Of a DNA stretch of 35,278 nt, positions 11,633 through 33,131 are shown piece after piece. Made by a program: the position numbers and the translations under genes. Position 1 is the stretch's first letter; each line of letters begins with the position of its first letter. The notes under the pieces are model-generated. The model saw nothing but the letters and a program-made list of their open reading frames with translations, was not told the DNA's origin and ran no database searches. Source of the stretch: a virus; IMG/VR virus record IMGVR_UViG_3300050026_000076, positions 1 to 35,278 of that record, one strand, 5' to 3'.

Positions 11633-12009
11633 ACCAGAGATTTATCGATTTTTCCCATTTAACAATCATGCTTGCTATAGGATTTTTAATTGGGGCTGAT
11701 TCAAAATCAGCGAGAATAAACCATGATGGTATACATCCGATAAACATAGTAATATCAAAAGAAAGGCTTAAAATTATGCTTAACGATCGAATCTGTATCC
11801 TTTGTGATTTTAATGAATTAGACATCATTGAATCCCAACGGGAGAACGAGGAATTTCGAAATTGTCCAAAATGCCACATGCCATCGTTCCGACGCCAGAT
11901 CCAGCATCCCTCCGCAGTAAGCATGGATGCAGGCCACGCCATTGATCAGTTCGATGCTGAACGGGCCAAAGCCTCCGCCGGCCACGGTAACGTGAGCCTG
12001 AGATTCTGA
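11629..12009 (+). CDS. Protein with Cys-pair motif, AT-rich gene
   Basis: A 126-residue ORF beginning at an ATG overlapping the NinB stop (ATGA). It has a hydrophobic N-terminal stretch (LTIMLAIGFLIGAD), then ICILCDFNELDI and NCPKCHMPSF, which together make a CxxC...CxxC zinc ribbon. The first about 220 bases are clearly richer in AT than the neighbours, which suggests separate acquisition. An internal ATG near 11776, just before the zinc ribbon, is an alternative start. It overlaps the sigma-like gene by one base (TGATG). Confidence 0.5.
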   Translation: MNQRFIDFSHLTIMLAIGFLIGADSKSARINHDGIHPINIVISKERLKIMLNDRICILCDFNELDIIESQRENEEFRNCPKCHMPSFRRQIQHPSAVSMDAGHAIDQFDAERAKASAGHGNVSLRF

Positions 12010-12347
12010 TGCCCATCTATTTTGATGAGTCCTACGCCCTATCCCTCTTAACGCGGGGTATGATTAACGAATGTATCGAATATTCAATTTCTTGTGTTGA
12101 TGCCCAATACGGTCTCAGCGCCTCTGTCTACGGGCCAGACGCATGGGAAGACCTCCGGTCGGAATACCTACTATATCTGACCATGGCTATTCAGCGTTAC
12201 GACTCAGGTAAAGGCTCTAAACTGTTCACCTGGATTCAAAACTATCTACGATACGCTCGGCTGAACTGGCTCAAAAAGGAAGTACCATTCCATGACCATA
12301 TGGTGCAATCCATAGAGGCACTGCATCCCACCACCCAAAAGGATTAG
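12009..12347 (+). CDS. Sigma-region-2-only factor, candidate late transcription regulator
   Basis: A 112-residue protein. Residues 46-97 read WEDLRSEYLLYLTMAIQRYD, then SGKGSKLFTWIQNYLRYARL and NWLKKEVPFHDH. This is the sigma70 region 2 pattern: the DL-E core-binding helix, the AI-RYD-GKGSKF-T turn, and the aromatic/basic helix that contacts the -10 box. No region 3 or 4 follows, as in T4 gp55. It stands immediately before the late block in the place of the lambdoid late regulator. I infer that it directs host RNA polymerase to the TATAATATAA boxes before the late genes. Similarity to region 2 is my reading of the sequence, not a search result. Confidence 0.6.
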   Translation: MPIYFDESYALSLLTRGMINECIEYSISCVDAQYGLSASVYGPDAWEDLRSEYLLYLTMAIQRYDSGKGSKLFTWIQNYLRYARLNWLKKEVPFHDHMVQSIEALHPTTQKD

Positions 12348-12349
12348 CC

Positions 12350-12701
12350 ATGGCGCACCCCAAAAACAGTCCGAAGATACAATGCCGCGCAATGGGCAAG
12401 CCGAGTCCTCGCCAGGGCGGAACGCGGACGAGCCAGGGTCGCGGAACTGGAGGCGGCGAACTATACCTCCACGTTGGACGAGCGCGACCGTATCTGGGAC
12501 CAGCTTACATCCTGGTCGATGACCTCCTTGCCGCCTTCAAACGCTGATATCCAGATGGTTGCCCCTCCGGCACAGCGGAGCATCAAAGTGGGCGCTGCTC
12601 AATTCCCCGCCATCACCTGTTTATCCTCATCTGTCCAGAAAGGACCACCATGCAGAACCGAGAAAAACAGATGGTCGAGAAACTGGTCCTCGCCAGCCTG
12701 A
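12350..12701 (+). pseudogene. Coiled-coil gene with a +1 frameshift at a run of five A
   Basis: The ATG at 12350 gives MAHPKNS and then unconvincing sequence. From the A run at about 12361-12365 the next frame reads TVRRYNAAQWASRVLARAER, then ARVAELEAANYTSTLDERDR and IWDQLTSW, clearly protein-like and likely a coiled coil, but it has no start of its own. One base too many in the A run, or a programmed +1 shift, would join MAHPK to this frame. The second frame is also in frame with the sigma-like gene across its TAG, so readthrough is a third option. Its C-terminal part overlaps the next gene and is less certain. Confidence 0.45.
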
Positions 12702-12883
12702 CTTGTGACAAGTGTGGCAAGACCGTCGAACCGACTTTCGGTGGGTTCGACGGCTGGCACTGCATGAGCGACACCGGAGGCTATGGCAGTCCCTTCGGTG
12801 ATGGTGCTACCTGGACCCTAGATCTCTGTGAGTACTGCTTTTATGGGTTGGTCAAGGACATTGTGATCTATCCGAATGCCTAA
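12650..12883 (+). CDS. Small zinc-ribbon-like protein
   Basis: A 77-residue protein with LTCDKCGKTVEPTFGG, a GGYGSPFGDGATW loop and LCEYCFYGLVKDI: two CxxC pairs typical of a small zinc-binding fold seen in several phage hypothetical proteins. AAAGGA lies before the ATG. It is the last rightward gene before the leftward moron. Confidence 0.65.
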   Translation: MQNREKQMVEKLVLASLTCDKCGKTVEPTFGGFDGWHCMSDTGGYGSPFGDGATWTLDLCEYCFYGLVKDIVIYPNA

Positions 12884-12910
12884 GCCCCGTTCGTACGCAA
12901 AAAATCCATC

Positions 12911-13108
12911 TTAACATGGGGGATCGATACCTGATATCTGAAAAGCCGCGTGGATCCAGCCCCGCGCACGTCGGCATCGGGGTAATTCCTCAGCCCATCG
13001 CCTCACGGTTCGGACATCGCAGTCCATGACATCGGCCACGGCCTGGACGCCCCCAAGCTTTTCTGCCAGGGTGCGCCACGGTTTGGGGAGGGTAGTGGGG
13101 CGTCCCAT
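12911..13108 (-). CDS. Small HTH protein of the moron
   Basis: A 65-residue protein. LAEKLGGVQAVADVMDCDVR followed by TVRRWAEELPR is a helix-turn-helix of the Xre/MerR-like size range, with GRPTTLPKPW before it. Its ATG overlaps the stop of the upstream ART-like gene (TAATG), so the two are coupled. It may regulate the pair, or act as its antitoxin. Confidence 0.6.
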   Translation of the reverse strand: MGRPTTLPKPWRTLAEKLGGVQAVADVMDCDVRTVRRWAEELPRCRRARGWIHAAFQISGIDPPC

Positions 13109-13413
13109 TACACCCCCTTGTTGGCAACTGCCATGGGGACCGCGAACGAGTGGTGGTTTTCAACCCACTCCTCCAGGCTCCATTCCCGGTCGGTGTAGTT
13201 GTTGGCCGAATCGAGGCCCATTACGATGTCGTCAAAATCGAATTTCAGGGCCTCGATTGGGACCACAACCCAAATCGCCTCCGCATCCGTGCCGCCGTAG
13301 TGTTTGGCCGCCTCGGGGTCGTTGGTGAGATAGACGAGGGGGGTGTTGAAACCGTTGGTGCGGATCGCATCAGCGGATTTGGCATCGGTCCAGTGGCAGA
13401 GTTCGATAGTCAT
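13108..13413 (-). CDS. ART-like (ADP-ribosyltransferase-fold) small protein
   Basis: A 101-residue protein from ATG behind AAAGGAG. It reads LCHWTDAKSADAIRTNGF, then LVYLTNDPEAAKHYGG and IWVVVPIEALKFDFDD. The order H-x-T/ad-I--nGF, vyLT-dpe-A--yg, V-i--L-fD-dD is that of small ART-fold proteins (RNA 2'-phosphotransferase, DarT- and RES-like groups). The C-terminal helix EWSLEEWVENHHSF may carry the acidic residue. It has its own sigma70-like promoter and opposes all neighbours, as a moron would. The enzymatic role is inferred. Confidence 0.5.
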   Translation of the reverse strand: MTIELCHWTDAKSADAIRTNGFNTPLVYLTNDPEAAKHYGGTDAEAIWVVVPIEALKFDFDDIVMGLDSANNYTDREWSLEEWVENHHSFAVPMAVANKGV

Positions 13414-13434
13414 TGGTGCTCCTTTGATGTCCAT

Positions 13435-13463
13435 AATATCGGTCAAAATGTCCTATACGTCAA
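13435..13463 (-). promoter_or_regulatory. Moron promoter (sigma70-like)
   Basis: On the minus strand TTGACG, 17 bases, GATATT, then about 20 bases to the ART-like ATG with AAAGGAG between. It allows expression independent of the phage programme. Confidence 0.65.
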
Positions 13464-13470
13464 CCCCCCC

Positions 13471-13540
13471 GAAAACATTTTTTTAGGCACTGAAAACATG
13501 GATGAGATCGACAGGGATTGACCCGAAACATTTAAAACAT
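13471..13540. repeat. Four AAACAT repeats between divergent promoters
   Basis: GAAAACAT at 13471 and 13492, GAAACAT at 13525 and AAAACAT at 13534, all in one orientation, fill the 80 bases between the moron promoter and the first late promoter. They may be binding sites for a regulator, for instance the moron HTH protein. Confidence 0.35.
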
Positions 13541-13544
13541 ACGG

Positions 13545-13554
13545 TATAATATAT
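13545..13554 (+). promoter_or_regulatory. Late promoter box 1 (terminase)
   Basis: TATAATATAT, preceded by GG and without a -35 at the usual distance (a TTGACC lies 21 bases upstream, too far for sigma70). It is followed by a leader with a hairpin and the terminase small subunit ATG at 13601. Confidence 0.6.
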
Positions 13555-13558
13555 ATAG

Positions 13559-13575
13559 ATGGGACTGTGACCCAT
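13559..13575 (+). promoter_or_regulatory. Leader hairpin 1
   Basis: ATGGG pairs with CCCAT around the loop ACTGTGA. The scaffold leader has AAGGG/CCCTT around ACCGTGC, so one base pair has changed on both sides. It would lie close to the 5' end of the late transcript and may protect it or influence translation. Confidence 0.5.
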
Positions 13576-13600
13576 TAAAAACACTGATATGGAGTATGCT

Positions 13601-13933
13601 ATGACAGTTAACAAAGTGCCAAATGGTGTAAAGAAAAAACCTCGGGGTGGGTCTCGCAAGGGATGCCCCAATAAGGTGACCAAAACGCTCAAGGAAATGA
13701 TCCTATCTGCTCTTGATGGTGCTGGTGGTGAACTCTATTTGCAGCGGCAGGCGGAGGAGAACCCCGGCCCGTTTCTTGCGCTCATCGGCAAGGTACTTCC
13801 GAGCACAATGGCCATCACCGGACCCGCAGGGAAGGATTTCAAGATCACGTTTGAGATCATCAGGCCAAAAGCCATTCATGACAAACAGGTGCCGAGTCTC
13901 CCCCACGGCGAGAAAACACCCGATAGCAAATGA
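13601..13933 (+). CDS. terS: Terminase small subunit-like protein
   Basis: A 110-residue protein. KKKPRGGSRKGCPNKVTKTL is a basic N-terminal motif common to small phage proteins encoded directly before the large terminase, followed by GELYLQRQAEENPGPFLALI and GKVLPSTM. It would recognise phage DNA to begin packaging. Start: an ATG 12 bases upstream is in frame, but GGAG is correctly spaced (six bases) only for the ATG at 13601. The P22 small subunit is longer (162 residues), and the family is poorly conserved, so the role rests partly on position. Confidence 0.65.
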   Translation: MTVNKVPNGVKKKPRGGSRKGCPNKVTKTLKEMILSALDGAGGELYLQRQAEENPGPFLALIGKVLPSTMAITGPAGKDFKITFEIIRPKAIHDKQVPSLPHGEKTPDSK

Positions 13934-15223
13934 ATGGTTAATTTTCAGATCCCAGAGGCCCTCGAATACCTCCTGAATGAGGATGTGCGCACGCTGGGGG
14001 CCTTCGGCGGCAGGGGCAGCGGAAAATCACATTCCGTGGGTCGGGTGGTCCTCGGCAAATGCCTTCGACGCCCTACTCGTTGGCTGAATGCCCGCGAGTT
14101 CCAATCCTCCATCCGTGAATCCGTCCACCAGCTCTATTGCTCCCTGATCGAGAGCCTGGGACTAGGCAGCGAGTTCGAGATCCAGCGGGACCAGATTCTA
14201 GGCCCTCATGGCTCTGTGCTCTCCTATGTCGGTCTGCACGATAAAAGCCTTGACAACCTGAAATCCTATGAGGGCTACGACGGCTGCTGGGTTGAGGAGG
14301 CGCAGAGCATGAGCAAGCGCAGTCTGCAATACCTCAAGCCGACCATCCGTAAAGACGGGAGCCAGATCATTTATACCTTCAATCCCGAGGAGGAGACCGA
14401 CCCGATCTATGATGAGCTAGTTACTCACCCCCCGGCTAATGCCATCATCAGAAAGGTGAATTGGTGGGATAACCCATGGTTCAACAGCATTTTAATGGAG
14501 GAAATGCGCCAGGACTACGAGCGCGACCCCGATGCTGCGGACTGGATTTGGGGCGGCAACTGCCGGAAGAACAGTGACAAACTGGTATTGCGTGGCAAAT
14601 GCGAGGTTAAGCCATTCATGCCCGATCCTGTTCTCTGGGATGGTCCCTATCATGGCCTCGACTTCGGTTACGCCCAAGACCCTCTCCATTCCACCAGGTC
14701 GTGGATATGGGAGGGGGATCTTTACATCGAATACGAGGCCTACAGCGAGCAGTGTGAGATTGAGGACCATCCTGCCGTGCTGGATGCCATCCCAGACGCG
14801 CGGGAACAGGTCATGCGCTGCGATAACGCCCGGCCCGAAATGGTGTCCTACATCCGCCGCCAGGGGTTCAAGCGGGCCATATCCTGCAAGAAATGGCCTG
14901 GATGCGTCGAGGATCGAATCGACTACCTGCGCTCCTTCCACAGGATCTATATCCACCCGCGTTGCCCTCATATCGATATGCAGCGCAAGCTCTGGTCCTG
15001 GAAGACCGACAAGGCGGGGAATATCCTTAATATCCTGATCCCTGGCAATGATCACGGCTGGGATGCCACGGGATACGCGCTTGAGCCTCATATCCTGGGG
15101 CACAAGAAGCACATTCAGCAGCGCGATGCCGCGCCAATCCTGGACTCACTTGGCCACCCCATCCGCCCAGGCGGGAGCGGGACATATCAGCGTCTAGCCA
15201 ATCCAAACCTCTGGATGACCTGA
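13934..15223 (+). CDS. terL: Terminase large subunit
   Basis: A 429-residue packaging motor of the Terminase_3 type. The ATPase domain has Walker A GGRGSGKS (residues 25-32) and Walker B CWVEEA (118-123) followed by the TFNPEEETDP coupling motif. The nuclease domain has GLDFGY (Asp243), RCDNARPE (Asp297) and GNDHGWDATGYAL (Asp373, Asp377), the RNase H-like metal ligands. It pumps DNA into the prohead through the portal and cuts it. The ATG lies directly after the small subunit stop with no clear ribosome site, so it is translationally coupled. Confidence 0.95.
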   Translation: MVNFQIPEALEYLLNEDVRTLGAFGGRGSGKSHSVGRVVLGKCLRRPTRWLNAREFQSSIRESVHQLYCSLIESLGLGSEFEIQRDQILGPHGSVLSYVGLHDKSLDNLKSYEGYDGCWVEEAQSMSKRSLQYLKPTIRKDGSQIIYTFNPEEETDPIYDELVTHPPANAIIRKVNWWDNPWFNSILMEEMRQDYERDPDAADWIWGGNCRKNSDKLVLRGKCEVKPFMPDPVLWDGPYHGLDFGYAQDPLHSTRSWIWEGDLYIEYEAYSEQCEIEDHPAVLDAIPDAREQVMRCDNARPEMVSYIRRQGFKRAISCKKWPGCVEDRIDYLRSFHRIYIHPRCPHIDMQRKLWSWKTDKAGNILNILIPGNDHGWDATGYALEPHILGHKKHIQQRDAAPILDSLGHPIRPGGSGTYQRLANPNLWMT

Positions 15224-15225
15224 AG

Positions 15226-15235
15226 TATAATATAA
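15226..15235 (+). promoter_or_regulatory. Late promoter box 2 (portal)
   Basis: TATAATATAA starts three bases after the terL stop and is followed by TTAAGAGG and the portal ATG, 13 bases from the box. No -35 is visible 15-19 bases upstream. Confidence 0.6.
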
Positions 15236-15248
15236 TTAAGAGGTTTGG

Positions 15249-17408
15249 ATGTCCGACGCGCAGGTTAAGCCCCGGCAGCGCACGAGCGAAGAGGAACAGG
15301 ATTTCCTCCGTGATGTGCAAAAACGGTTCCGCGATTACAAAGAGGCATGGCGTCGGCAGTATGAACTGATGGCTGAGGACATTGCCTTTTGTAGCCCTGA
15401 CAATCAATGGCCTGCTGGCGTCAAGGAGGCTCGCATCGGCAAGCCCACCTTCGCTGCCGACCGGCTAAACGCCCAGGTCAAGCAATTGACTAATGCTCAA
15501 CGCGAGAACCGGCCCGCTGTGCAGGTGCACCCAACCAGCGACGGGGCATCTGAGGACGTGGCAAACATCATGCAGGGAATCGTGCGGCATATCGAATATG
15601 AGTCCGCCGCCGATATGGCCTACGATGAGGGCAATGAGTGGCAGGTTCGCGCGGGCCTGGGATTCTGGCGCTTACGCACCGAATACAGCGGACGCTCCTT
15701 CAATCAGAAGCTGGTCATTGACTCGATCAACAACCCGTTCCAGGTCTATATCGACCCCTACTCCAAGCAGTTGGACGGCTCGGACATCCAGGATGGGTTC
15801 ATTTTCGAATACCTATCCATGGATGACTTCAAGCGGCTCTATCCCGATGCTGAAGCCGCCCAGATGGAGATCGGCACATGGCTAGGCATGGGCCAGCGTC
15901 TCCCGGAGTGGTTCACCGCCGAGAAAACCGCCTGCGTAGCTGAGTATTATGTCACCGAATACGAGAGCAAGACCATTGTTCACTTGTCACATACTGGAGA
16001 GATTAAGGAAAAGGCCAAGCTTGACAAGGGCGAAGTCCAATATATTGATGCAGAACGGGATATTGAAGAGCCCGTGGTCCATCATTATAAGCTTGATGGG
16101 GTTGAGATACTGGAAGAGACAATATGGGTTGATGACACTATTCCCATTATCCCAGTATTCGGTGATCCCCTCTTGGTTGACGGCCAGCGCATCTATGCGG
16201 GGCTGATTCGGCACTCCAAGGAAGAGCAGATGATGCTCAACGTGGTGAAGACCAGCATCATCGAGATGATTGCGGCCGCACCCAAGACCCCATGGATCGG
16301 CCCTCAAGGGTTCGTGGGCGACGCTAAGGAAGACTGGGCGAATGCCAACGTCACCAACAAGGCATACCTGGAATATCAGGCATTTACGGACGATGGCGTT
16401 ACCCCTCTGCCTCCTCCAACCCGGAATATCCAAGAGCAGCCCATCCAGGGCATGTTCCAGGTCATGCAGAGCCTGGAAAACGACATCAAGGCCACCAATT
16501 CAATGTATGACCCGACGATGGGCAACAAGATGGCCAATGACCAATCCGGCATTGCTATCAAAGCCATCCAAACGGCGGGGAGCATCGCCAATTATCATTT
16601 CAGCGACAACCTCACCCGTGCCATGCGCCTCAGTGGCCGCAAAATCATCAAGATCATCCCCAAGCTCTACAGTGAGAAGCAGGTCATCCGCATCATCGGT
16701 GCCGACCGCAAGAATTCCCTCGTGACGATCAACGGGACTGGCGCAGCGGATGAGCAGAACGAGAAGGATGAGCAAGGTATTCCCAAGATTTACGACCTGA
16801 GCGCCGGGGAATATGACCTGGCCGTGGATTCCGGTCCGTCTTACCAGACCCAGCGCGAACAGGAGCGGGCCGTATTGTTCGAGTTGGCCGGTCGAGATCC
16901 CCAGCTTATGGCGATTGCGGGCGACATCATGGCGTCTCTCCTCGACTCGCCCATCGCCAAGACACTATCCGAGCGGCTCGAAAAGGCCCTCCCAATCAAC
17001 CTCCAGCCGCCCAAACAGGGTCCAGATCCCCAGGCTCTTCAGCAGCAGCTTACGGACTACCAGCAGCTCTGCCAGAAGCTCACTCAGCAGCTTCAGCAGG
17101 AAACCCAGCTAGCCGACAAGGTGCAGGCCAGCGAGCAGATGCGGTTCCAGATTGCCCAACTAGACAACCAGACGGAGCTTATGAAGGCCAAGGCCCAGAT
17201 GATGCATGACGGATCCAAAACGCTGCTGTCTGCCCAGATTGAGGAGCTGAAGCTAAAGTCCAACCAGTCCCACGAAGCCTTGATGGGGCTCCAGAAACAC
17301 ATCCTGGGCAAAGATATGGAAAGTCACCAGGCCGCATTGGCCCCTCCTCCGGCCCCGTTTAATGAACCTGGAGATCAGGTAGCCCCCATAAATCCTGGAA
17401 ACTCTTAG
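15249..17408 (+). CDS. Portal protein, P22 type
   Basis: A 719-residue protein, close to the 725 of P22 gp1. It starts with a charged helical region containing ERENRP-like QLTNAQRENRPAVQVHPTSD and the MAYDEGNEWQVRAGLGFWRL segment, and carries the central NSMYDPTMGNKMANDQSGIA motif, all typical of the P22_portal family. The C-terminal about 130 residues are Gln-rich and coiled coil, like the barrel extension of P22. Twelve copies form the DNA channel at one vertex, where the terminase docks during packaging and the tail later binds. AAGAGG lies five bases before the ATG. Confidence 0.9.
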   Translation: MSDAQVKPRQRTSEEEQDFLRDVQKRFRDYKEAWRRQYELMAEDIAFCSPDNQWPAGVKEARIGKPTFAADRLNAQVKQLTNAQRENRPAVQVHPTSDGASEDVANIMQGIVRHIEYESAADMAYDEGNEWQVRAGLGFWRLRTEYSGRSFNQKLVIDSINNPFQVYIDPYSKQLDGSDIQDGFIFEYLSMDDFKRLYPDAEAAQMEIGTWLGMGQRLPEWFTAEKTACVAEYYVTEYESKTIVHLSHTGEIKEKAKLDKGEVQYIDAERDIEEPVVHHYKLDGVEILEETIWVDDTIPIIPVFGDPLLVDGQRIYAGLIRHSKEEQMMLNVVKTSIIEMIAAAPKTPWIGPQGFVGDAKEDWANANVTNKAYLEYQAFTDDGVTPLPPPTRNIQEQPIQGMFQVMQSLENDIKATNSMYDPTMGNKMANDQSGIAIKAIQTAGSIANYHFSDNLTRAMRLSGRKIIKIIPKLYSEKQVIRIIGADRKNSLVTINGTGAADEQNEKDEQGIPKIYDLSAGEYDLAVDSGPSYQTQREQERAVLFELAGRDPQLMAIAGDIMASLLDSPIAKTLSERLEKALPINLQPPKQGPDPQALQQQLTDYQQLCQKLTQQLQQETQLADKVQASEQMRFQIAQLDNQTELMKAKAQMMHDGSKTLLSAQIEELKLKSNQSHEALMGLQKHILGKDMESHQAALAPPPAPFNEPGDQVAPINPGNS

Positions 17409-17418
17409 TATAATATAA
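17409..17418 (+). promoter_or_regulatory. Late promoter box 3 (scaffold and coat)
   Basis: TATAATATAA directly follows the portal stop. It leads into a 51-base leader containing the second covarying hairpin. No -35 element is visible. Confidence 0.6.
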
Positions 17419-17421
17419 CCA

Positions 17422-17438
17422 AAGGGACCGTGCCCCTT
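17422..17438 (+). promoter_or_regulatory. Leader hairpin 2
   Basis: AAGGG pairs with CCCTT around the loop ACCGTGC. The sequence after it (TTAAAACAC...CATAT) and the first codons (CAGTTAAC) also resemble the terminase leader, so the two leaders are homologous. Confidence 0.5.
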
Positions 17439-17469
17439 AAAACACCGCATATCACACTTGGAGTAATCC

Positions 17470-18288
17470 ATGCCAGTTAACCCGGATACCACCGGCTATG
17501 AAGACATGAACACCGCATTAACCGCTGCACCCGTCCCTGAGACGGTTGAAACCCAGGAGATTCCAGCACCCCCTGAAGAAGTTGAAACCCCCGAAGTGGT
17601 AGCAGAAACGACTGAGGAAGCTGAAAACGCCGCCCTCGCCGCCGAAGAAACCACCGAAACCCCCATTGATGAGGGAGCCGCGCCGGAAGCGGAGGAACAC
17701 AAGCGAAGCAAAGCCGCCGAGAAGCGTATTGCCGAGCTAGTCAAACAGCGAGAACAGCTCAAGGGCCAGATCGCCGCTCTTTCCCAGAACAAACCGCCTC
17801 AGCCGGTCGTTCCCATGGTCGATCCCATGGCCCCCCCTGATCCTGCCTCCTATACGGATGAGATCGACTATAAGGTCGATTTCAAACTGTGGGAGCGCGA
17901 CCGGAAAGCCAAGGATGCTGCCTTCCACCGGCAAATGACCGAGATCACCGTCAAGTATCCCGACCTTCCGGAACTGATCGAAGCCGCCAATGTGCTCGAC
18001 ACGCAAGGGATTCCAACCGCGAATCCGACCATGGGCGCATTGATCAAGGAATTGGATGATCCCGGCGATCTCTACCACTACCTACTGAGCCATTCGGACG
18101 AAGCAGTCCAGATCGCACGAATGGGGCCGCTTCAGACGGCCAAAGCCATCGGAAAGATCGAAGCGAAACTCTCTGCCCCTCCCGTGAAGCCTCCTGAGCC
18201 TCCCAAGAAACCTCTTCCGCCGCCCATTACGCCCGTCAAGACCGGAAAAGCTGGTGGACCCCCCAAATCAGAATTCGTGGAGTACTAA
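17470..18288 (+). CDS. Scaffolding protein
   Basis: A 272-residue acidic protein between portal and coat, the P22 gp8 position. Residues 1-75 are rich in Glu, Pro, Thr and Ala; a helical segment with KRSKAAEKRIAELVKQREQL follows, then a Pro-rich middle and a basic, Pro/Lys-rich end (KPPEPPKKPLPPPITPVKTG). In P22 a basic C-terminal helix of gp8 binds coat. It would guide prohead assembly and leave before packaging. GGAG lies six bases before the ATG. Confidence 0.8.
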   Translation: MPVNPDTTGYEDMNTALTAAPVPETVETQEIPAPPEEVETPEVVAETTEEAENAALAAEETTETPIDEGAAPEAEEHKRSKAAEKRIAELVKQREQLKGQIAALSQNKPPQPVVPMVDPMAPPDPASYTDEIDYKVDFKLWERDRKAKDAAFHRQMTEITVKYPDLPELIEAANVLDTQGIPTANPTMGALIKELDDPGDLYHYLLSHSDEAVQIARMGPLQTAKAIGKIEAKLSAPPVKPPEPPKKPLPPPITPVKTGKAGGPPKSEFVEY

Positions 18289-18291
18289 GAA

Positions 18292-19590: not shown

Positions 19591-19607
19591 GCAGAGGAGA
19601 ATAGACA

Positions 19608-20957: not shown

Positions 20958-20963
20958 ACCTAC

Positions 20964-20996
20964 AGAGGGGGGCTTAACGGCCCCTCTTTGCTTTTG
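20964..20996 (+). terminator. Rho-independent terminator after the capsid genes
   Basis: AGAGGGG (20964-20970) pairs with CCCCTCT (20981-20987), followed by TTTGCTTTT. It separates abundant capsid transcription from the tail genes. Confidence 0.8.
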
Positions 20997-21288: not shown

Positions 21289-21317
21289 GGGCCACTCAGG
21301 GGTATCCCGAGTGGCCC
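21289..21317 (+). terminator. Strong hairpin just before late promoter box 4
   Basis: GGGCCACTC pairs with GAGTGGCCC; inside, GGG pairs with CCC with one A bulged, giving about 12 pairs. The following bases are not a T-tract, so it may be an incomplete terminator or an RNA end-protecting structure. Confidence 0.5.
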
Positions 21318-21321: not shown

Positions 21322-21331
21322 TATAATATAA
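21322..21331 (+). promoter_or_regulatory. Late promoter box 4 (adaptor and tail genes)
   Basis: TATAATATAA followed by CTAGAGG and the ATG at 21345. It restarts transcription after the terminator at 20964 and the hairpin at 21289. Confidence 0.6.
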
Positions 21332-23175: not shown

Positions 23176-26100
23176 TTGAAGCTTAAAGGATTCATAGGAC
23201 CCGGTTATACGCTGAGAACAGTCAACTTCGACTGCCAAAGGTGCGTCAACCTCTTTCCCGAGAAGGACGAACTCCAGACTGGCAAGGAGCAGGAAGTAGC
23301 CATGCTCTGCGGAGTCCCAGGCTTCACCCTTCAGCATGTTCTCCCTCGATCTCCCATCCGTGCCGTCTATTTCACCGCCAACGGCTATATCTATGCCGTG
23401 GCGGGGAATGGGCTTTACAATCTCACCGTAACCTCGGATGGCATTTGGGCTCATACCCTCATCGGCTACCTGAACACCAGCACCGGCCCTGTCTCTATCA
23501 GGGACGGGGTTCCCAACGTCTATAATGGCATCGCCAACACTGGACTGATCAATCAGGTGGTGGTGGTGGACGGTTCAACCACCGGACTGTGTTTCGAGGA
23601 GGGCACCACTCAGGTTTATCAACTGAGCTCGGACAACGGCTACGCTGGATCGAATTTCGTCACCTTCCAGGATGGCTTCTTCCTCTTCGCCCAGTCTGGG
23701 ACCATTTCGGCCTATTACGCCAATGATCCGCTGAACATCTCAGACCTGGATGTTATCAACGTAAATCTTTCCTCGGATCAGGTGTCGCGGGTCATCTCGG
23801 ATCACGATATCGTTTGGATCTTCAGCAATCGAACGCTCAGTGTTTGGCAGAACACCGGGGGTTCGAGCAGCTCGAATGTATTCCAGCAGATCCCAGGAGC
23901 CGAGGCGGAGGGCGGCTGCAACGCACCGGCCAGCATCGCCCAGGTGGCGGGCCAGTTGATCTGGACCACCAATGACGACCGTGGCTATGGCATGGTCTGC
24001 ACGGCCTTTGGTTATCGAGGGGTGCGGATCTCCAACCATGCGGTTGAGGACTGGCTGCAATCCGTGGGCGATATCAGCGGAGCCACAGCCTGGACCTACC
24101 AGGAGGGCGGCCACTCGTTCTATTGCTTGAACGTCCCTGGTTCCAGTTCCACCTGGTGCTACGACACCGTAACCCAGATGTGGTGCGAACGGCAATTCTT
24201 CGCGGACGGCGTTTGGAGCCGCGATCTCATCGCCTGCCACTGCAATGTCTACATCGCCGGGATAGGCACCATCCATCTGGTGGGCGATTACCAGACCGGG
24301 AATCTCTACAAACTGGATGATTCCAATTACACCTTCAACGGAACGCCCATCAGCCGAATCCGAACCTCACCGCACATGAGTGGATCGCTCAAGCGGGTGT
24401 TCTATTCGTCCTTCCAATTGGATGTCGAGGCCGGTGTGGGCCTCGACGGCAACGGATTCCAGGTTCAGCAGGGCACCACGGGCGCTCCATACACCCAAAC
24501 CGCCAGCGGAACCCTATTAGCCGGGGACAGCCCGTTCACCTTCCTGGGGACCGATGGCACCCCCCAGATCCCCACTACGGTTCCGACCATCACCGCATTG
24601 GTTCCGACCATGGCCACGGGCTTCCCGAACTGGTCCGGAACCTATTCCATCAACTACACTACGGGCACCCTTACGATGACGGCTGGAACCCTGGAGACTC
24701 CGGTGATGGCTCTCGCGCCTGGAAATGGAGTGCAGTATAATTTTACGCTTCCAAATCTATATAACCTAACTCTGGCATCAGGTGGATATCAGATATGGGT
24801 TAATGACTGGCGCGGGAACAATCTTCAGTATGTATACCCGGCAGTCAATAAAAACTGGTGCACGTCCAGTTATGACTTCAACTATGCGGGTATCTGGACC
24901 TTGACGGGCGTTAATGCCGTTCCATCTTCCTGGGCATCTGTCACGTCCATAGCGGCCGCGAATGCTTACCGTCCCAGCTCCTCCTCCGCTTCCGGGGTGA
25001 CTCTTACCAACGGGGCCTATGCCTATGACGGGACGGGATTAACGGTTAAGACCAGTGGAGATTATGCCTCCACATCCCTTGACGGTGGAAGCACTGGTTC
25101 TCCGGTGTCCGGCTCCGTTACCTATGCCGGGTTCAGTGGCAGTTCTTTTTCCGGGACACTGAATCTGTATGGGTTGTTCCAAAGCTCTGTCCCTCCATCA
25201 TATAATCTTCCGGTTGTTGTCACCATATCAGCAGATGGGTATGCATCAGAACAAACCAGCACATGGTCCGGAACAACGAATACCCTTCTGAGCACATTTA
25301 TTTCAGTTAAGGATTTGACGACTCTCTCGGTTACCGTGACCTTATATTCAATGGTATTTACGAGCTATCTCAATTTATATGACATTGTTCTTTTGGACAA
25401 TTCACTCGTGCTGGGCTCTAATTCGATTCCGTCACCAGATGGAAACAGCACGGGAACGATGTTGACCGAAGAGAAATCATCAAATTATCACCTGATTTCC
25501 TTTACTTATCCCGTTACGTTGCCACAAGTAACCGGATTGTCTTGTTATGCGCTGGTTGGAGACACTAATCGTTACTTGCATATGATGCTTAAACCTATTA
25601 GAAGTGGAACATATGTTTCCGTTTGCTTCAACCTATCTAATGGGACTGTCCAATCTTCTTCCGGAGGTTCCCCGACCATTACTCCCTATGTTTTCCCGAC
25701 CCAAATATGCACCGGAATGATCGTCGGGAATAAATACAAAATCATGTCCCTTGGGAATACAACCTTCAGAAATTACGGAACGCTTGTTTCAGGAACCGAC
25801 AATACGGTTGGAGCCATCTACGCTTGCACCGCTGTTCCTCCCTCCGGCCAAGCTGGAACGGTTCAGTTACAAACCCCTGGGATTTATCGCTGCTGGATAA
25901 ATTATACCGAGAATTCCGCTTCCCTCAATGGAATGGAAGCGATCATTGCAATGACTCCGAACCCAAGCGCAGGAGCTATTGGCTATAGCGCTGATTACTA
26001 TAATGGGAATGGCAAATCCTGCATTGGGATATGGGGCGTCCATATCGATACCATAGGGGCGTCCTCGCCTCCTCCCCTTGTCCAGACATCCGGGGAAGTA

Positions 26101-26532: not shown

Positions 26533-26711
26533 TCAGAACCCCTCCTCCCAGCAGCAAGCCCCTGGATGCCAATGGGAATTGGACCCCTGAATGGCGGGCC
26601 TATTTCGACCGGCAGGTAACCCCCACGGTCAACACCCTGGAAACCAACCAGATATCCTCGCTCACGTCGATCAATCCCACGATTGCCCAAACTCTCTTGA
26701 ATAACAGCTAG
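26529..26711 (+). CDS. Short protein in the gp26 (tail needle) position
   Basis: A 60-residue protein overlapping the previous stop (ATGA). The N-terminus PPPSSKPLDANGNWTPEWRA and AYFDRQ are a known phage pattern; the C-terminus (VNTLETNQISSLTSINPTI) could form a trimeric coiled coil. P22 gp26 has 233 residues, so if this is the needle it is extremely short; it may only be an anchor or cap peptide. Confidence 0.5.
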   Translation: MIRTPPPSSKPLDANGNWTPEWRAYFDRQVTPTVNTLETNQISSLTSINPTIAQTLLNNS

Positions 26712-26719
26712 GAGAAGAA

Positions 26720-27070
26720 ATGCTTTCCACTGTAACGCCTCTCAGGCTCACCGCAGGCACCCAAAATCAGCTCGCCACCACACCTCGGCAGCTCTATGTC
26801 TGCCCGCCGAATACCTATGTCAAGATCAGCGCCACCACGCTTTCCAACGCCAGCGCGACCGCAGCCAGCGCCACCCTGCACCTGGTCCCGGCAGGTGGAC
26901 AGCCCAGCACGGCTACCCAGATCACTCCGGGCCAAAGCATCAACGCCGGAGCAACCTATGTGGCCACGGAACTCAATAACCATATTCTCCAGCCCGGAGA
27001 TTCAATCTGGGGCTCTGCTGATTTGACTTCGGCTATCAATGTGCATATCTCGGGAACCCAAATTTCATGA
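26720..27070 (+). CDS. Small beta-rich tail-module protein
   Basis: A 116-residue protein, Thr/Ala/Ser-rich, with PLRLTAGTQNQLATTPRQLY, NAGATYVATELNNHILQPGD and a final SAINVHISGT. The pattern suggests a beta-sandwich of a virion accessory protein, of the kind found as generic phage tail proteins. It lies between the gp26-position and gp14-like genes. Confidence 0.55.
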   Translation: MLSTVTPLRLTAGTQNQLATTPRQLYVCPPNTYVKISATTLSNASATAASATLHLVPAGGQPSTATQITPGQSINAGATYVATELNNHILQPGDSIWGSADLTSAINVHISGTQIS

Positions 27071-27540
27071 CCTTCACTTTCCGGCTCATCCAGGACGAAG
27101 CCCTCATCCGACAGGCCATCATGGCCCCAAACAATGCCCCGTGGAGCTTCGAGGACGGGTATGATGTCGCTTCCTGGAACGTAAACCCGTCCAGTGGGGT
27201 ACTTTCCCTTGGGTGTTTCCATGGCCAAGAGTTTCTGGGGATCGTCGGCCTGATTCCCCAGGGGAAAGGGCGGCTTGAGGCCCACATAGCATTCCTCCCA
27301 GCCATCTACGGCAATGCCGCACAGGTGGGCAGGGAGTGCCGGGAATGGATATGGCGGCATATGGGTGCTGAAACCGTTATCGCCCCTTGTCTGGAATGTA
27401 ACTCCCTGGCTAAACGGTTCCTGACTCATATCGGGTTCACTCATCATGGCTATGCTGATAAGACTTGGCTCAAAGATGGGGAAAACCATCGCATTATGAT
27501 ATTTGAAGTTCAGAACCCGCATAATATAAGAGAGGGGTAA
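27067..27540 (+). CDS. DUF2824 / GNAT-like protein, P22 gp14 position
   Basis: A 157-residue protein with a GNAT-like layout: LIRQAIMAPNNAPWSFEDGY, LGIVGLIPQGKGRLEAHIAF and GAETVIAPCLECNSLAKRFL, then THIGFTHHGYADKTWLKDG. The end resembles the helix-strand finish of acetyltransferases. It corresponds to the DUF2824 family, which includes the P22 head assembly protein gp14 and lies in the same order. Whether it acetylates anything is unknown. It overlaps the preceding gene by four bases. Confidence 0.75.
   Translation: MTFTFRLIQDEALIRQAIMAPNNAPWSFEDGYDVASWNVNPSSGVLSLGCFHGQEFLGIVGLIPQGKGRLEAHIAFLPAIYGNAAQVGRECREWIWRHMGAETVIAPCLECNSLAKRFLTHIGFTHHGYADKTWLKDGENHRIMIFEVQNPHNIREG
27520..27529 (+). 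promoter_or_regulatory. Late promoter box 5 (ejection proteins)
   Basis: CATAATATAA followed by GAGAGGGG and the ATG at 27543. The first base departs from the consensus, and the box overlaps the end of the gp14-like gene, so it may be weak. Confidence 0.45.
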
Positions 27541-27542
27541 GT

Positions 27543-28268
27543 ATGTCCGGTATGGGACAGGTCATGGGCGGCATCGGCCAGAGCATTTCCGGCCCGGTCA
27601 ACGGCATCATCGGAAGCAAGGCCGCAGTGAATGCCGGGAACGAAGAAACAAGCGCCTACAACAGCGCCATGCAGGCCGAAAACAACGTTTACGACACCAA
27701 CTCGGCTTATTACAAGCCGTATATCAACAACGGGACTGCGGCGAATAATGAACTCGCGTCGGAAACCGGGCAGAATGGTTCTCTTGGCCGTGCGTTCACT
27801 TCGACCGACTTCCATGCTTCCCCATCCTATCAATTTGATATGCAACAGGGCCTCAACGCGATCAACAATTCCAATTCGGTTCGCGGCGGCTCCCTCTCCG
27901 GGGGAACACAGAAGGCCATGAGCAACTATGGAGAGCAGCAGGCCAACAATGGCTACCAGCAGGCTCAACAGAACTTCGTGAATAACCAGAACCAGAATTA
28001 CAACCAGCTTTCCGGGCTCTCCCAGCAAGGGCTGACGGCCACTCAGGGGCTCGGGCAGTTGGGCTCCAATTATGCCAACGCTACCTCCAACCTCCTGGTC
28101 GGGCAGGGCAATGCCAGCGCTCAGGAAACCATGGCCAAGGCGGCGGCTCTTGAGGGGGCCGTCAACACCACCCTCGTTTCCGGTCCTTCCAACGTGGGCT
28201 CAGGCGTTGGGAACATGGTCAATAGTGGATCGAACCTTTCCAGCCTAACGTCTATGTTCGCCAACTAG
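27543..28268 (+). CDS. gp7-like DNA ejection protein
   Basis: A 241-residue protein. The central SPSYQFDMQQGLNAINNSNS, VRGGSLSGGTQKAMSNYGEQ and NFVNNQNQNYNQLSGLSQQG form the well-known P22 gp7-type pattern (PSYQF-QG--A-N-s--RGG-LSGgt). Gln/Asn-rich helices surround it. The protein is packed in the capsid and injected to help DNA cross the envelope. AGAGGGG lies close before the ATG. Confidence 0.8.
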   Translation: MSGMGQVMGGIGQSISGPVNGIIGSKAAVNAGNEETSAYNSAMQAENNVYDTNSAYYKPYINNGTAANNELASETGQNGSLGRAFTSTDFHASPSYQFDMQQGLNAINNSNSVRGGSLSGGTQKAMSNYGEQQANNGYQQAQQNFVNNQNQNYNQLSGLSQQGLTATQGLGQLGSNYANATSNLLVGQGNASAQETMAKAAALEGAVNTTLVSGPSNVGSGVGNMVNSGSNLSSLTSMFAN

Positions 28269-28277
28269 GAGTAAGAG

Positions 28278-30203
28278 ATGCCCTATGGAATGGGTGGATA
28301 TGGTGGATATGGTGGTTATGGCGGGGGGCTCGGTTCCATCCCTATGCCGACCGGCGCAGTAACCGGCCTGATCCCCAATGAAGTGAATGTTGACCCCAGG
28401 GTGCGGGGCCAGGTGATTGCTCAGAATCAGGCCAACGCTGCCAACCAGCAAGCCGCGACCGATGCCGCCCTCATCACGGCGGCCGCGCAGAAGCATACCT
28501 CATGGCAACCCCAACAGACCAACGTGGTGCAATCCCAGCCTTCAGCTCCCATTGGAAATCAGGGGCCGGTGAACCCCCAGCAGCCCACTCCGCCCCCCGC
28601 GCAACCTCCCTCCTCGCTGGCATCTATCATGCCATCCCAGCAATCGCCTTACCCGGCGCAGGGGCCGGTTAAGCCTACTGCCCCGCTGCCTGCCAATCCA
28701 CTGAAGGCTTACGCCCCGCTCACCCCCGCCACGGGACCCGCGATTTTGAATGACCCCGCGCTACAGGCCGTCGCCGGCGCGCACAACAACGCCGATACTT
28801 CCATGGCGGTTGGAAGTAGCCCGACCTTCAACCCGGTGCAGTCCTATACAGCCAAGGGTCCGAACGGCCAGATGGGACAATTCAGCCTGGACCGGGCCGG
28901 GATTATCTCCGATCTCATGGGCCAGGGGCGCGGCGATCTTGCCAACGGTTTGGTCAAACAGTGGACGGATGCCGATCTCCAGAGCGAGCAAACCAAGCAG
29001 GTGGCCCTTATCAAACAACATGCGTTGCTGGCCGGGAATGTCGCCGCCTTCGAATCCCTCCCGGAATCCATGAAGCCAGCGGCCTATTCCGCACTCATGG
29101 CTCAGGTGAAGTCCGAGGGCGTCAATACGGCGGGAATCCTCCCGGATGCCTATGACCCCAAAGACGCGGCAGGAATCGCCCAGATTAAGAATTTTGAGGC
29201 CCAGGCGTCCACCGTGGCAGAGAAAGAAAAGGCCAAAATGGACCAAGTTGTTGCGACCATGGACCAGCAGCGCACGGCTGAAACCGCTCGGCACGATAAG
29301 GCAGATGAATGGCTGAAAGGCCAAGAAAACAAGATTGCAGCATCCAAGGCAGCTCAGGCCGTTAATGGTGTCCTTGGAAGTGCTGGATTGGTTGGTCCCG
29401 CCTTCCTGGCCCAACTGGACCCGGCCACGATCAACACTCTACAGGGCATCGCAACCGGGAAACTCGTTTTGCCGCCTCGTGGGCAGCAAACTTCCGCACT
29501 TCTCCAGGCGGCTCATCAGGCGTGGCCGGATGTGGATATTCCCGGTGCCCAGAAACTCACCAAAGATTTAGGCGCATCCAACGCAGGAACATCTGGCGGC
29601 ATTGCCGAGGGCTCCAATAAAACTCTGGAGCACATCGGCGTCATGATGGCCCAGGATCAGGCGGGTGGCCAGCGCGGCTCGACCATCACCCCCAACTTCC
29701 TTGCAGCGGGCGCGAACGCGGTTATCAACGCGCTAGAACCTGATGAGAACAATGCCAAGGCTGCCTGGAATCAGGCCCACGCCGCAACCCTTACCGAGAT
29801 GTCCAGATCCTTCAAGGGTGGCCCTCCGGGAGAATCTGAAGTTGTGCGGGACATGAAAACACTATCGTTCAATGATCCCCCGGCCAAAAAGCAAGCTGTG
29901 TATCGGGCATTCGCTGATCTTCTTCAGGGTCAGACGGGTGCCGTGGAATCTCAGCGTAAGTCGGTCTATGGATCTCTCGATCCGGGAACATCCCTGCTGA
30001 CTTCCCAGGCCCAGAAGGTGTATGCCGCGCTTCATGGTGGCTCGACCGGGAACCTTCTTCCCGCGTTCGACTCCCAGCAGTCGGTGAGTAGTGCCCCCCC
30101 TGCCGCTTCAGGCACCAATCACCCCGCAGCGGCCCAGATGAAAGATGGAACCGTTTCCCAGAGTGGCAAGTTCGTCTGGCATGGCGGATGGGTGCCGAGG
30201 TAA
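28278..30203 (+). CDS. gp20-like ejection protein
   Basis: A 641-residue protein in the P22 gp20 position. The first about 20 residues are Gly/Tyr-rich (MGGYGGYGGYGGG), followed by a Pro/Gln-rich disordered region and a helical core (GQFSLDRAGIISDLMGQGRG, AEKEKAKMDQVVATMDQQRT). Sequence conservation in this family is low, so the call depends on position, size and composition. It has no obvious enzyme motif. GGAGT lies before the ATG. Confidence 0.6.
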   Translation: MPYGMGGYGGYGGYGGGLGSIPMPTGAVTGLIPNEVNVDPRVRGQVIAQNQANAANQQAATDAALITAAAQKHTSWQPQQTNVVQSQPSAPIGNQGPVNPQQPTPPPAQPPSSLASIMPSQQSPYPAQGPVKPTAPLPANPLKAYAPLTPATGPAILNDPALQAVAGAHNNADTSMAVGSSPTFNPVQSYTAKGPNGQMGQFSLDRAGIISDLMGQGRGDLANGLVKQWTDADLQSEQTKQVALIKQHALLAGNVAAFESLPESMKPAAYSALMAQVKSEGVNTAGILPDAYDPKDAAGIAQIKNFEAQASTVAEKEKAKMDQVVATMDQQRTAETARHDKADEWLKGQENKIAASKAAQAVNGVLGSAGLVGPAFLAQLDPATINTLQGIATGKLVLPPRGQQTSALLQAAHQAWPDVDIPGAQKLTKDLGASNAGTSGGIAEGSNKTLEHIGVMMAQDQAGGQRGSTITPNFLAAGANAVINALEPDENNAKAAWNQAHAATLTEMSRSFKGGPPGESEVVRDMKTLSFNDPPAKKQAVYRAFADLLQGQTGAVESQRKSVYGSLDPGTSLLTSQAQKVYAALHGGSTGNLLPAFDSQQSVSSAPPAASGTNHPAAAQMKDGTVSQSGKFVWHGGWVPR

Positions 30204-30205
30204 CT

Positions 30206-32833
30206 ATGGCAAACTATGCTGTCCCCGCTCCCGACGACGCGCCTTCCAGTGGATACGCTGTTCCGGCCCCAGATGATGCTCAACCTCAGGCCAGCTGGCA
30301 AGCCCAGGTAAAGCCTGCCCAGACCTACAACGGCAAGCAGTCCGTCCTCCGCTCGGATGGTGCCGTTTGGTATGGCCCGGAACAAGGCAATACCGGGGCT
30401 CCTGGGTGGTTCGACGCGCAGGGCAACCGCGCCAGCGATGCGCCGGGGCAATCGAAGCCTACCCTGAGCACTCTGGGCCGCTTGGGCTCCGAAGCAGCCA
30501 TTGGCGCAACCTCCTGGGCTCCTGCTTTGGCCGGCCATATCTTGAGCGGCTTTGGATTATTCCCGAACAAGGTGGCCCAGAGCCAGACGGACCTTGCCAA
30601 TCAGGCTAATCAGTATGGGCAGGAGCTTGAAAACGGAACGCCCAGTGCTCTTGGGCTTCCGTCCAACGCCCCTGCCAAGAGCCTGCATGGATTTGGGACC
30701 GCTGCGAATTTGGCGGGGCAACTCGTGCCGATGGCTCTTGCGGGAGAAGTTACCGGTGTCCCGGCTCTGACCCGCGCGGCCATGGGGTATCTGCCCGAGG
30801 CCACAACCGCGCTCGGAAGGCTTGGGACTTCGCTTGCGGGCGGGGCAATTGGTGGTGGCCTGTTCGGTGGGATCACCGCGCCAGCTATGCAGCCCACCCC
30901 TGAAGGCCAGTCTTATGGTGGTGCGGCCGCGCAGAACATCCTTCCGTCTGCCGCCATGGGTGCCTTTGTCCCAGGTGGGTTGTCTGCCTTGAGTGAAGGC
31001 CCTGAAATCATCGGGCAAGGGATGCGCCGCGTCCTAGGGACTCCTGCGGAGCGGCAAGCCGCCTTGGACTTGGCTCTATCCATCCGCTCGGCTACTGGAG
31101 CCGAGCCGAGTCTTGGGGAATCCCTGCAAAATCCCACCCTCAAACATGTTGAAAATGCCTCTGAATATGTTCCCATGGGCGGTCGGGGTACTCAACTCAA
31201 GGCCAATAATGCGGCCCTACAGGGTGCACTCCAAGCCGAGGTGGACGCCAATACACCGGCGCTTGGCCCCACGGGGGCAGGCGACATGATCGCCAATTCG
31301 GCCAAGGCTGGGCTCTCCGCGAAACGAGCACCGGCCATTCAACTATATAATGAAGTTCGGGCATCCGCTGGAAGCGCAAAGCCTACCGTCGATAATACCC
31401 TTGATGCCTATGATGACGCCATCGCTCAGGAATCGGGGATTTCTGGCGCCGATTCTCCACAGACCAAACTACTTCAAGCGGAACGCGATAAGCTGGCATC
31501 TGGAGAAACGGCCCCTACCTACAACTCCCTAGAAAAGATGCAGGACCGGCAACAGAGCCAAGCGGCGAACAATTTCAATGCTCCCAGTCAGGAGGCCCAG
31601 GACGTGGCCCACTACCGATCCGAGATTGGGAAGGCGATGGGAGCAGATTTACATGCCACCGCCAACGCTGTCGATCCCGCACTTGGGGATAAATACGCTC
31701 AGGCCAACAATATTTATGCTGAATCCTACAATTACGACCCCAACGCATCGACTGATTGGCAGGAGTCCAAGCAGCGTAGCATGAACCGTATTCTGCATGG
31801 CCAAGAAGGTGCTACGACCACGTTGCCGGACCAGCTATTCCGGGGAGACAATCCCGATATGGCTGCCCACGCCGCCGAAACCTTGACTCCGGAGGGCCAA
31901 GCCGCCGTCAAAGCGGCTATCTGGGATCGCATCAACAAGGCAGCTAATACCACCAGTCAAGGTGGCACTTCCAAGTCTCAGGTGTTCAGCCCGGCCAAGG
32001 CATCCGGGGCCATCGATGACCATGCCAACTTCATCAAGCAATTCTTCAGCCCCGATGAACAGAACGACATCTTTGGGTTGCGTGATGCCTTCCGCACCAT
32101 GCAGCGCTCAGGGCAATATATGGAGAGCCTCCAAACCGGGAAGTTCGTGCCAGCCATTGCGGCCGCTACCGGCCTCCCAAGTGCCGCCGGACTCGCCCTT
32201 GCTGGGCATCCTGCAACCCTCGGGATGGAACTGGGAACCATGGGGGCAGCCCGAGGCTACAACGCCCTGTCGGGCACTCCAGGGGGCAAGAATTGGCTCC
32301 TGAATCCAGGTGGAGCGCCAACCTCGGTGGGGACGATTGCCTCGCCTCAGATGTCAGGATTGACCACCCTGGCTCGTCCGCGTTCCCAGCAGGAATATGA
32401 CGCGCTGCCCCCGGAAACCCCCTACCAGGGCATGAGTGGGACACCGGGGATGAAGCTGTCCACCATCCCACAGTATGACCCTCAGTCTGGTTTTGAGAAG
32501 TTCACCACACAAGACGTTGACCCCAGTGCCATAAGCAAAGGACTCATTGAGAAGGGGAATATCCCTTTGGTTGGGCGCCCCCTGGTTGCAATGGGAAGGG
32601 GAAGCGTTGGCTCGGAATACAGTTACACCATTGATGATAATGGGGCAAAGGTTCTGATCCCATCCATCTTTGATGGAGCACCTCATACAGCGCAACAAGC
32701 AATCGCCCATTATCGGACGACCGGGCAGCATCTTGGGAAATGGAATAATGAGGCTGATGCTGCTGCTGCTGCTGAAATTATTCACAACCGGGAGAACCGC
32801 GTCCTTTATCAACAACCAGGAGTAAAGCCATGA
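30206..32833 (+). CDS. gp16-like large internal virion protein
   Basis: An 875-residue protein in the P22 gp16 position. I chose the ATG at 30206 (behind GAGG) over one 18 bases upstream inside the previous gene. The N-terminus has two AVPAPDD repeats; hydrophobic, Gly/Ala-rich segments around residues 170-250 could insert in membranes; a long helical middle follows. The end (IEKGNIPLVGRPLVAMGRGS, LIPSIFDGAPHTAQQAIAHY, TTGQHLGKWNNEADA) matches a C-terminal domain shared by many podovirus internal proteins. No lytic transglycosylase motif is obvious. Confidence 0.65.
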   Translation: MANYAVPAPDDAPSSGYAVPAPDDAQPQASWQAQVKPAQTYNGKQSVLRSDGAVWYGPEQGNTGAPGWFDAQGNRASDAPGQSKPTLSTLGRLGSEAAIGATSWAPALAGHILSGFGLFPNKVAQSQTDLANQANQYGQELENGTPSALGLPSNAPAKSLHGFGTAANLAGQLVPMALAGEVTGVPALTRAAMGYLPEATTALGRLGTSLAGGAIGGGLFGGITAPAMQPTPEGQSYGGAAAQNILPSAAMGAFVPGGLSALSEGPEIIGQGMRRVLGTPAERQAALDLALSIRSATGAEPSLGESLQNPTLKHVENASEYVPMGGRGTQLKANNAALQGALQAEVDANTPALGPTGAGDMIANSAKAGLSAKRAPAIQLYNEVRASAGSAKPTVDNTLDAYDDAIAQESGISGADSPQTKLLQAERDKLASGETAPTYNSLEKMQDRQQSQAANNFNAPSQEAQDVAHYRSEIGKAMGADLHATANAVDPALGDKYAQANNIYAESYNYDPNASTDWQESKQRSMNRILHGQEGATTTLPDQLFRGDNPDMAAHAAETLTPEGQAAVKAAIWDRINKAANTTSQGGTSKSQVFSPAKASGAIDDHANFIKQFFSPDEQNDIFGLRDAFRTMQRSGQYMESLQTGKFVPAIAAATGLPSAAGLALAGHPATLGMELGTMGAARGYNALSGTPGGKNWLLNPGGAPTSVGTIASPQMSGLTTLARPRSQQEYDALPPETPYQGMSGTPGMKLSTIPQYDPQSGFEKFTTQDVDPSAISKGLIEKGNIPLVGRPLVAMGRGSVGSEYSYTIDDNGAKVLIPSIFDGAPHTAQQAIAHYRTTGQHLGKWNNEADAAAAAEIIHNRENRVLYQQPGVKP

Positions 32834-33120
32834 TCGCCCCCTGGATTCATCCCCCACTCGCTCATCAGCAAGCCTTTCAGGCCAAATTCGGGGGAGCCCC
32901 CAATTCGCCCATGATCCCCAATCCTGGGGCATCTTCCGGCGCATTCACCCCCAATGCCGTCCAGAGCTCGGCCATCCGCGAGAAGGTAAAACCCAGGCCA
33001 ATGAAGACCTTCGTCCATTCCGCCGTCAAATCGCCCGGAATGGGAGGCGCAACCCAGAGCCAGCCATACCCGACCGGAACCAATGTGGTTCCTGGTTCTA
33101 CGTCGCTTGGAAACCTATAG
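32830..33120 (+). CDS. Small Pro-rich protein after the ejection genes
   Basis: A 96-residue ORF overlapping the previous stop (ATGA). It is Pro/Ala/Gly/Asn-rich and probably disordered, with SSAIREKVKPRPMKTFVHSA in the middle. Family unknown; possibly a minor virion component. Confidence 0.5.
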   Translation: MIAPWIHPPLAHQQAFQAKFGGAPNSPMIPNPGASSGAFTPNAVQSSAIREKVKPRPMKTFVHSAVKSPGMGGATQSQPYPTGTNVVPGSTSLGNL

Positions 33121-33121
33121 A

Positions 33122-33131
33122 TATAATATAA
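33122..33131 (+). promoter_or_regulatory. Late promoter box 6 (lysis genes and tailspike)
   Basis: TATAATATAA followed by ATAGAGG and the ATG at 33145, with the same short leader as boxes 2 and 4. No -35 element is visible. Confidence 0.6.

Follow-up and report, generated by a model that had tools for sequence, protein, structure and literature searches.

Sigma factors that lack the domain reading a -35 element are known from a few phages. In T4, sigma similarity of gp55 is limited to domain 2, and the late promoters consist of a -10-like element alone (PMC2988020, PMC7892883). The protein was named the smallest member of the sigma family in 2010 (PMC2988020). It comprises 185 aa including a clamp-binding tail, and its partners are gp33 and the gp45 clamp. 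A further case without region 4 is phi32_gp36, which recognises just one 9-bp element (tAATGTAtA), transcription starting 6-8 bp downstream of it (PMC8948821). Its phage, phiEco32, is a podovirus (Kuravirus) of 77 kb, is not of the P22-portal type and possesses gp79, which shuts off host sigma.

Further systems invite comparison. The genes of lambda Q and P22 gp23 end the early right operon, after the nin genes and before the late block, and their products act by modifying the polymerase at a single late promoter. Small sigma-like activators of late genes are represented by Xpf of PBSX and by late factors of Gram-positive prophages, Xpf being listed with both sigma-2 and sigma-4 (PMC10141391). 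In SigO-RsoA of Bacillus subtilis, sigma regions are distributed over separate small proteins, and a second sigma partner is required.

Here, we present an analysis of a 35,278-base virus record from IMG/VR, analysed over its full length and termed the window, or G000 in comparisons. A preliminary description of this DNA had proposed that a sigma factor reduced to region 2 acts on late promoters without -35 elements. In our assessment it is likely that such a minimal factor drives six -10-only late promoters. In the open literature searched, which was an incomplete selection, no earlier description of a factor of this kind in P22-like phages was found.

Repeated boxes at the openings of late transcription units

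The window contains five copies of TATAATATA, exclusively on the plus strand, with 0.06 copies expected, and none of 100 shuffled versions of the window contained five copies. A sixth box at 27520 (+), CATAATATA, deviates by one mismatch, and an exact TATAATATA is found at the equivalent place in the related phage G001. The only remaining one-mismatch copies are TATAATTTA at 25898 (-) and GATAATATA at 34976 (+), in a tally that disregards the reverse strands of the boxes themselves, which are near-palindromic. All six boxes (Table 1) form the openings of late transcription units. Their positions, strand and location at the starts of late units had been given in the preliminary description and were reproduced throughout.

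The distance to the coding sequence had been described as mostly 13-14 bases. This applies to the boxes at 15226, 21322, 27520 and 33122: in each case exactly 14 nt separate the box from an ATG, and AGAGG or GAGGGG serves as the Shine-Dalgarno sequence. Longer leaders, both with a GGG hairpin, are present at the two remaining boxes, namely 35 or 47 nt at 13545 (depending on ATG 13589 or 13601) and 52 nt at 17409. Initiation is predicted 4-6 nt past the box, which would leave four units with very short leaders of the Shine-Dalgarno type and result in a 5′-terminal hairpin at the TerS and the scaffold/coat units.

Table 1. Positions of the features discussed in the text (window coordinates).
Feature	Position	Strand	Remarks
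Candidate host sigma-70 early promoter TTGACA-16-TATTTT	8694..8721	+	replication-ninB-sigma operon
ninB recombination gene	11183..11632	+	Pfam NinB E 7.1e-27; two genes upstream of sigma gene
Sigma-70 region 2-only protein, proposed late sigma factor	12009..12347	+	112 aa; Pfam, homologues, AlphaFold/Foldseek
Proposed late promoter box TATAATATA	13545..13553	+	TerS unit; kept in G001, G002, G003, L007 (G006)
TerS 5′-terminal leader hairpin GATGGG-ACTGTGA-CCCATT (predicted)	13558..13576	+	same element in four relatives
Proposed late promoter box TATAATATA	15226..15234	+	portal gene; kept in G001, G002, G003, L006 (G005), L007 (G006)
Proposed late promoter box TATAATATA	17409..17417	+	scaffold and coat unit; kept in G001-G006
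Scaffold 5′-terminal leader hairpin AAGGG-ACCGTGC-CCCTT (predicted)	17422..17438	+	leader comparison
Proposed late promoter box TATAATATA	21322..21330	+	tail/connector unit; kept in G001, G002, L008 (G004)
Proposed late promoter box CATAATATA	27520..27528	+	DNA-ejection gene
Proposed late promoter box TATAATATA	33122..33130	+	late gene at 33145; kept in G001

The TerS and scaffold leaders agree in the consensus GGGAC[CT]GTG[ACG]CCC, behind which an A-rich stretch begins. Scaffold leaders close the GGG/CCC stem with an A-T pair and TerS leaders with a T-A pair, so that both partners of the pair differ, although few of the sequences are independent. The hairpin of G001 is shifted 2-4 nt towards the box and would therefore still be located at the predicted 5′ end. 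A search of the leaders against Rfam yielded no match. Stabilisation of the mRNA is the likely role of these structures; a stabilising 5′-terminal hairpin is known, for example, from ompA mRNA.

Related phages and co-occurrence of box and sigma gene

The family was assembled by scanning IMG/VR for TATAATATA with the hairpin behind it; the sigma gene was not used as a criterion. The scan delivered G001 (38.6 kb), G002 (20 kb), G003 (11 kb) and the contigs of L006, L007 and L008 (labelled G005, G006 and G004, respectively). G001 has a direct terminal repeat of 127 bp and was thus taken as a complete genome. By Blast identity, four lineages can be distinguished (the window; G001-G003; L006/L008; L007), with 69-77% identity between lineages. 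The sampling amounts to only about four phage lineages, three of which cover the gene region.

A homologue of the protein encoded at 12009 is present in all four relatives that cover the region (G001, G002, G003 and L007), L006 and L008 being fragments that do not extend to it. Among phages with a P22-type portal and without a Sigma70_r2 match, TATAATATA was absent in 12 of 12, and three viral contigs related by TerL that lack the gene had 0 or 1 copies. A box kept in the absence of the gene, which the preliminary description had named as a refuting outcome, was thus not encountered in the sequences examined, and its fold test did not speak against it either, so that its reading is supported. 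Searches starting from the protein were less productive: on its own, the window protein retrieved no relatives, a two-sequence alignment found L007 only, and bacterial genomes yielded no copy of the sigma gene.

The six promoters orthologous between G000 and G001 are identical at 53 of 54 box positions. The region from -40 to -5 of the same promoters is identical at 61 of 216 positions (about 28%), which is background level and directly shows that no hidden -35 is conserved. In agreement with the preliminary description, which had recognised no -35 at 15-19 bases, the best matches at this distance from the window boxes reach 2-4 of 6 positions, again background level.

In G001 and G002 the TerS/TerL module, located between the first and second late boxes, has been exchanged for an unrelated-looking one as compared to G000, G003 and L007. 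Since the promoter box and the hairpin leader are retained despite this exchange, the box resembles a border of recombination.

A stand-alone sigma region 2 protein

The preliminary description had assigned to the gene at 12009 a segment resembling sigma region 2 alone, and its suggested fold comparison was carried out here. In a single-protein search, the window protein matches Pfam Sigma70_r2 with E 0.012 and 15.8 bits, below the 24-bit cut-off; in a record-wide search the E-value is 4.8e-4, still below the curated cut-off. The homologues of its four relatives exceed this cut-off in the record-wide search. A score for the L007 protein of 24.2 versus 24 bits (E 2.9e-5) likewise reaches the cut-off. 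All five proteins match the profile individually, the best with E 5.2e-6, and Sigma70_r2 is matched exactly once per phage in all five phages, always by this gene. Homologues show 35-57% identity, L007 being the 57% case; four phages have proteins of 105-112 aa (107 aa in G001), whereas that of L007 comprises 155 aa. No match to Sigma70_r4 (PF04545) was detected at E 10 in G000-G003 or G006 (L007).

The AlphaFold model of the 12009 protein has a pLDDT above 90 across region 2. Among the Foldseek PDB matches listed for it there are sigma chains exclusively, with probabilities up to 1.00 but E-values of 0.1 or more, which, owing to the small size and helical nature of the domain, are not significant by themselves. 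In the viral Foldseek library, phage sigma factors top the matches. W75 and Y79 are invariant across the five homologues, and in an alignment with sigma-K, W75 coincides with the tyrosine that in sigma-70 flips the -11 base. From profile matches and structure prediction, we identify the protein as a sigma-70 region 2 standing on its own, and the factor would consist of this single domain and a short N-terminal helix, without region 3 or 4.

Two candidates were rejected in this context. A region 4 in the 155-aa homologue of L007 was considered, but the C-terminus of its model is of low confidence and whole-sigma matches superimpose at an rmsd of about 17 A, which does not establish such a region. 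An Arthrobacter phage sigma factor gave E 1e-4 over region 2, yet it was matched over region 4 as well, which indicates a general sigma resemblance only.

The relationship to the described factors appears to be one of analogy. T4 gp55 shares the resemblance to region 2 and the -10-only late promoters, and phiEco32 gp36 combines a missing region 4 with single-element late promoters without a -35. However, gp36 has 214 aa as compared to 105-155 aa here, and its element differs from TATAATATA. Against Sigma70_r2, gp55, a proven sigma used for calibration (E 0.087), scores below the present proteins, including the window protein, while gp36 reaches E 0.002. Profile comparison by hhalign gave a probability of 0.2% for gp55, i.e. 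no profile similarity, and of 0.3% for gp36, with no homology detectable beyond Sigma70_r2. The present proteins are closer to ordinary sigma-70 region 2, and together with the missing homology this suggests a new, apparently independent variant. The term "gp55-like" of the preliminary description fits the way in which the factor would work; as a statement on descent it is not borne out.

The protein might also be the region 2 half of a split or assisted factor, in need of a second phage or host protein such as a region 4, a gp33-like flap binder or a clamp-tethered activator. Factors of the region 2 type are often partnered: gp55 works alongside gp33 and the clamp gp45 (PMC2988020), and SigO-RsoA has been catalogued as a single sigma made of two proteins (PMC10141391). 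In addition, a glutamine near the C-terminus is invariant in the five homologues and is followed by QL[DE]-hydrophobic-x-hydrophobic in three close ones, a pattern that loosely resembles bacterial beta-clamp-binding peptides and is regarded as a lead. The 65 extra C-terminal residues of the L007 homologue could also contain a weak, unrecognised partner domain. However, neither a Sigma70_r4 match nor a bacterial-type beta clamp gene was found in these genomes, no second sigma partner of the RsoA kind was found, and the unconserved stretch from -40 to -5 indicates that nothing is read sequence-specifically there. Furthermore, gp55 by itself gives basal accurate initiation (PMC2988020). We therefore regard a factor that depends on a partner as rather unlikely, and favour the minimal region 2 factor.

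Anatomy of the proposed late promoters

Besides the box, 26 late sites pooled across the related phages, which are not independent of each other, show A at -3 in 22 cases, C or G at -1 in 23 and purines at +12 to +14 in all. A matrix trained on the relatives alone places the five exact window sites at the top ranks in 35 kb and the site at 27520 among the top dozen. Site by site, -35 scores are near background; one G003 site reaches 5/6 with 18-nt spacing, and its relatives do not have this -35. Late promoters of -10 type without a -35, a trait of the gp55 family, are thus encountered here as well.

Since the box includes a perfect host -10 hexamer, host sigma could contribute to its use. Taken further, the boxes could be -10 elements of host sigma-70 assisted by another activator, with the region 2 protein acting elsewhere, for instance by blocking host sigma. 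This would fit the TATAAT with which the box begins and the one early copy in G001-G003 that has a proper -35. It does not fit the late sites, which have no convincing -35, carry the extended -10 TGn in only 1 of 26 cases and lack a conserved upstream activator site. Conservation extends three bases past the hexamer and includes the distant purines, and the repeated boxes co-occur with the gene, so that we consider this alternative improbable. That the boxes are RNA or DNA processing or packaging signals at operon borders instead of promoters is hardly credible: several lie exactly at a stop codon or at the junction of two genes, and a hairpin follows two of them, but the -10 resemblance, the uniform orientation, the fixed 14 nt to ATG at four units, the downstream purine run, the copy with an intact -35 and the linkage to a sigma gene all speak against it.

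A GC-rich hairpin at 21289-21317 (about -24 to -29 kcal/mol) is located directly 5′ of the fourth late box. Its position is kept in G001, G002 and L008 (G004), its sequence is not, and a T run is missing; it perhaps marks a border between transcription units.

Gene neighbourhood and early operon

The sigma gene is located downstream of ninB and ahead of the late block and so sits where lambdoid phages keep Q. Profiles of the Q family (PF03589, PF06530) had no match in the five genomes. The earlier suggestion that antitermination has been replaced is plausible in view of this result and of the gene position. As in lambda and P22, the late-switch gene would end the early right operon, but here six separate promoters would be served instead of one. 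A search for a single-subunit phage RNA polymerase gave no match, but since its control matched nowhere either, this result does not establish an absence.

The gene had also been described as lying directly upstream of the late block. This holds for the relatives, where a box is found at the stop codon of the sigma gene or just past it, except in G002, where a 102-aa ORF lies between and ends in the box. In the window, a gap of about 1.2 kb including two minus-strand ORFs (12911-13413) separates the gene from the first late box. One of these ORFs encodes a Cro-like helix-turn-helix protein (P22_Cro E 5.9e-4, below cut-off). A comparable protein is encoded in L007 at 2185-2736 on the plus strand, upstream of the sigma gene.

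All seven exact boxes of G001 occupy the late strand, the opposite strand having none; six are late and one is early. The early copy, TTGACG-17-TATAAT at 12714, stands at the start of the replication-ninB-sigma operon and was ruled out as a late promoter, being an ordinary early sigma-70 promoter with a -35. The candidate window promoter at 8694 is plausibly its counterpart. At this candidate (8694-8728), an ATG follows about 6-8 nt past the -10 and opens a small ORF of about 65 aa from 8728; owing to this short distance, the first early message may be leaderless.

A leftward early operon (6479-7480, minus strand, with adjoining minus-strand ORFs) contains a RecT gene (E 6.2e-36) and diverges from the rightward replication operon, which corresponds to a lambda-like layout. 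Between 4304 and 4602, a tandem array of about 47 GCCGTA hexamers lies within ORFs on both strands (low-complexity protein).

Discussion

The minimal-sigma reading leads to a simple cascade from host promoter to early operon, phage sigma and late boxes. Transcription from the host sigma-70 promoter through the replication genes and ninB would yield the sigma protein, whose region 2.1/2.2 would dock onto host core RNA polymerase. The polymerase would then be directed to the six -10-only promoters of the form A-N-C/G-TATAATATA, with purines at positions +12 to +14 counted from the initial base of the box, and the genes for head, packaging, tail and DNA ejection would be transcribed. Core binding, promoter recognition, timing, the transcription start and the role of the hairpin are deductions in this scheme, which builds on the observed motif and its conservation, its co-occurrence with the gene, the region 2 homology and the failure to detect a region 4 or Q.

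A more far-reaching version holds that a free-standing region 2 of about 105 residues is the whole specificity factor, that it arose independently of gp55 and gp36 and took the place of Q, and that it is perhaps tethered C-terminally to the beta clamp of the host. We put this forward as a tentative proposal that may well prove too bold.

The finding points to more than two origins of late switches of the sigma type lacking region 4, and to the ability of a lambdoid/P22-type genome to trade antitermination for promoter switching within one gene slot. The present proteins are shorter than gp55, the smallest sigma family member as of 2010 (PMC2988020). A natural sigma domain of about 105 residues with a near-invariant 9-bp target would provide a clean system for studying minimal promoter finding and opening by bacterial RNA polymerase.
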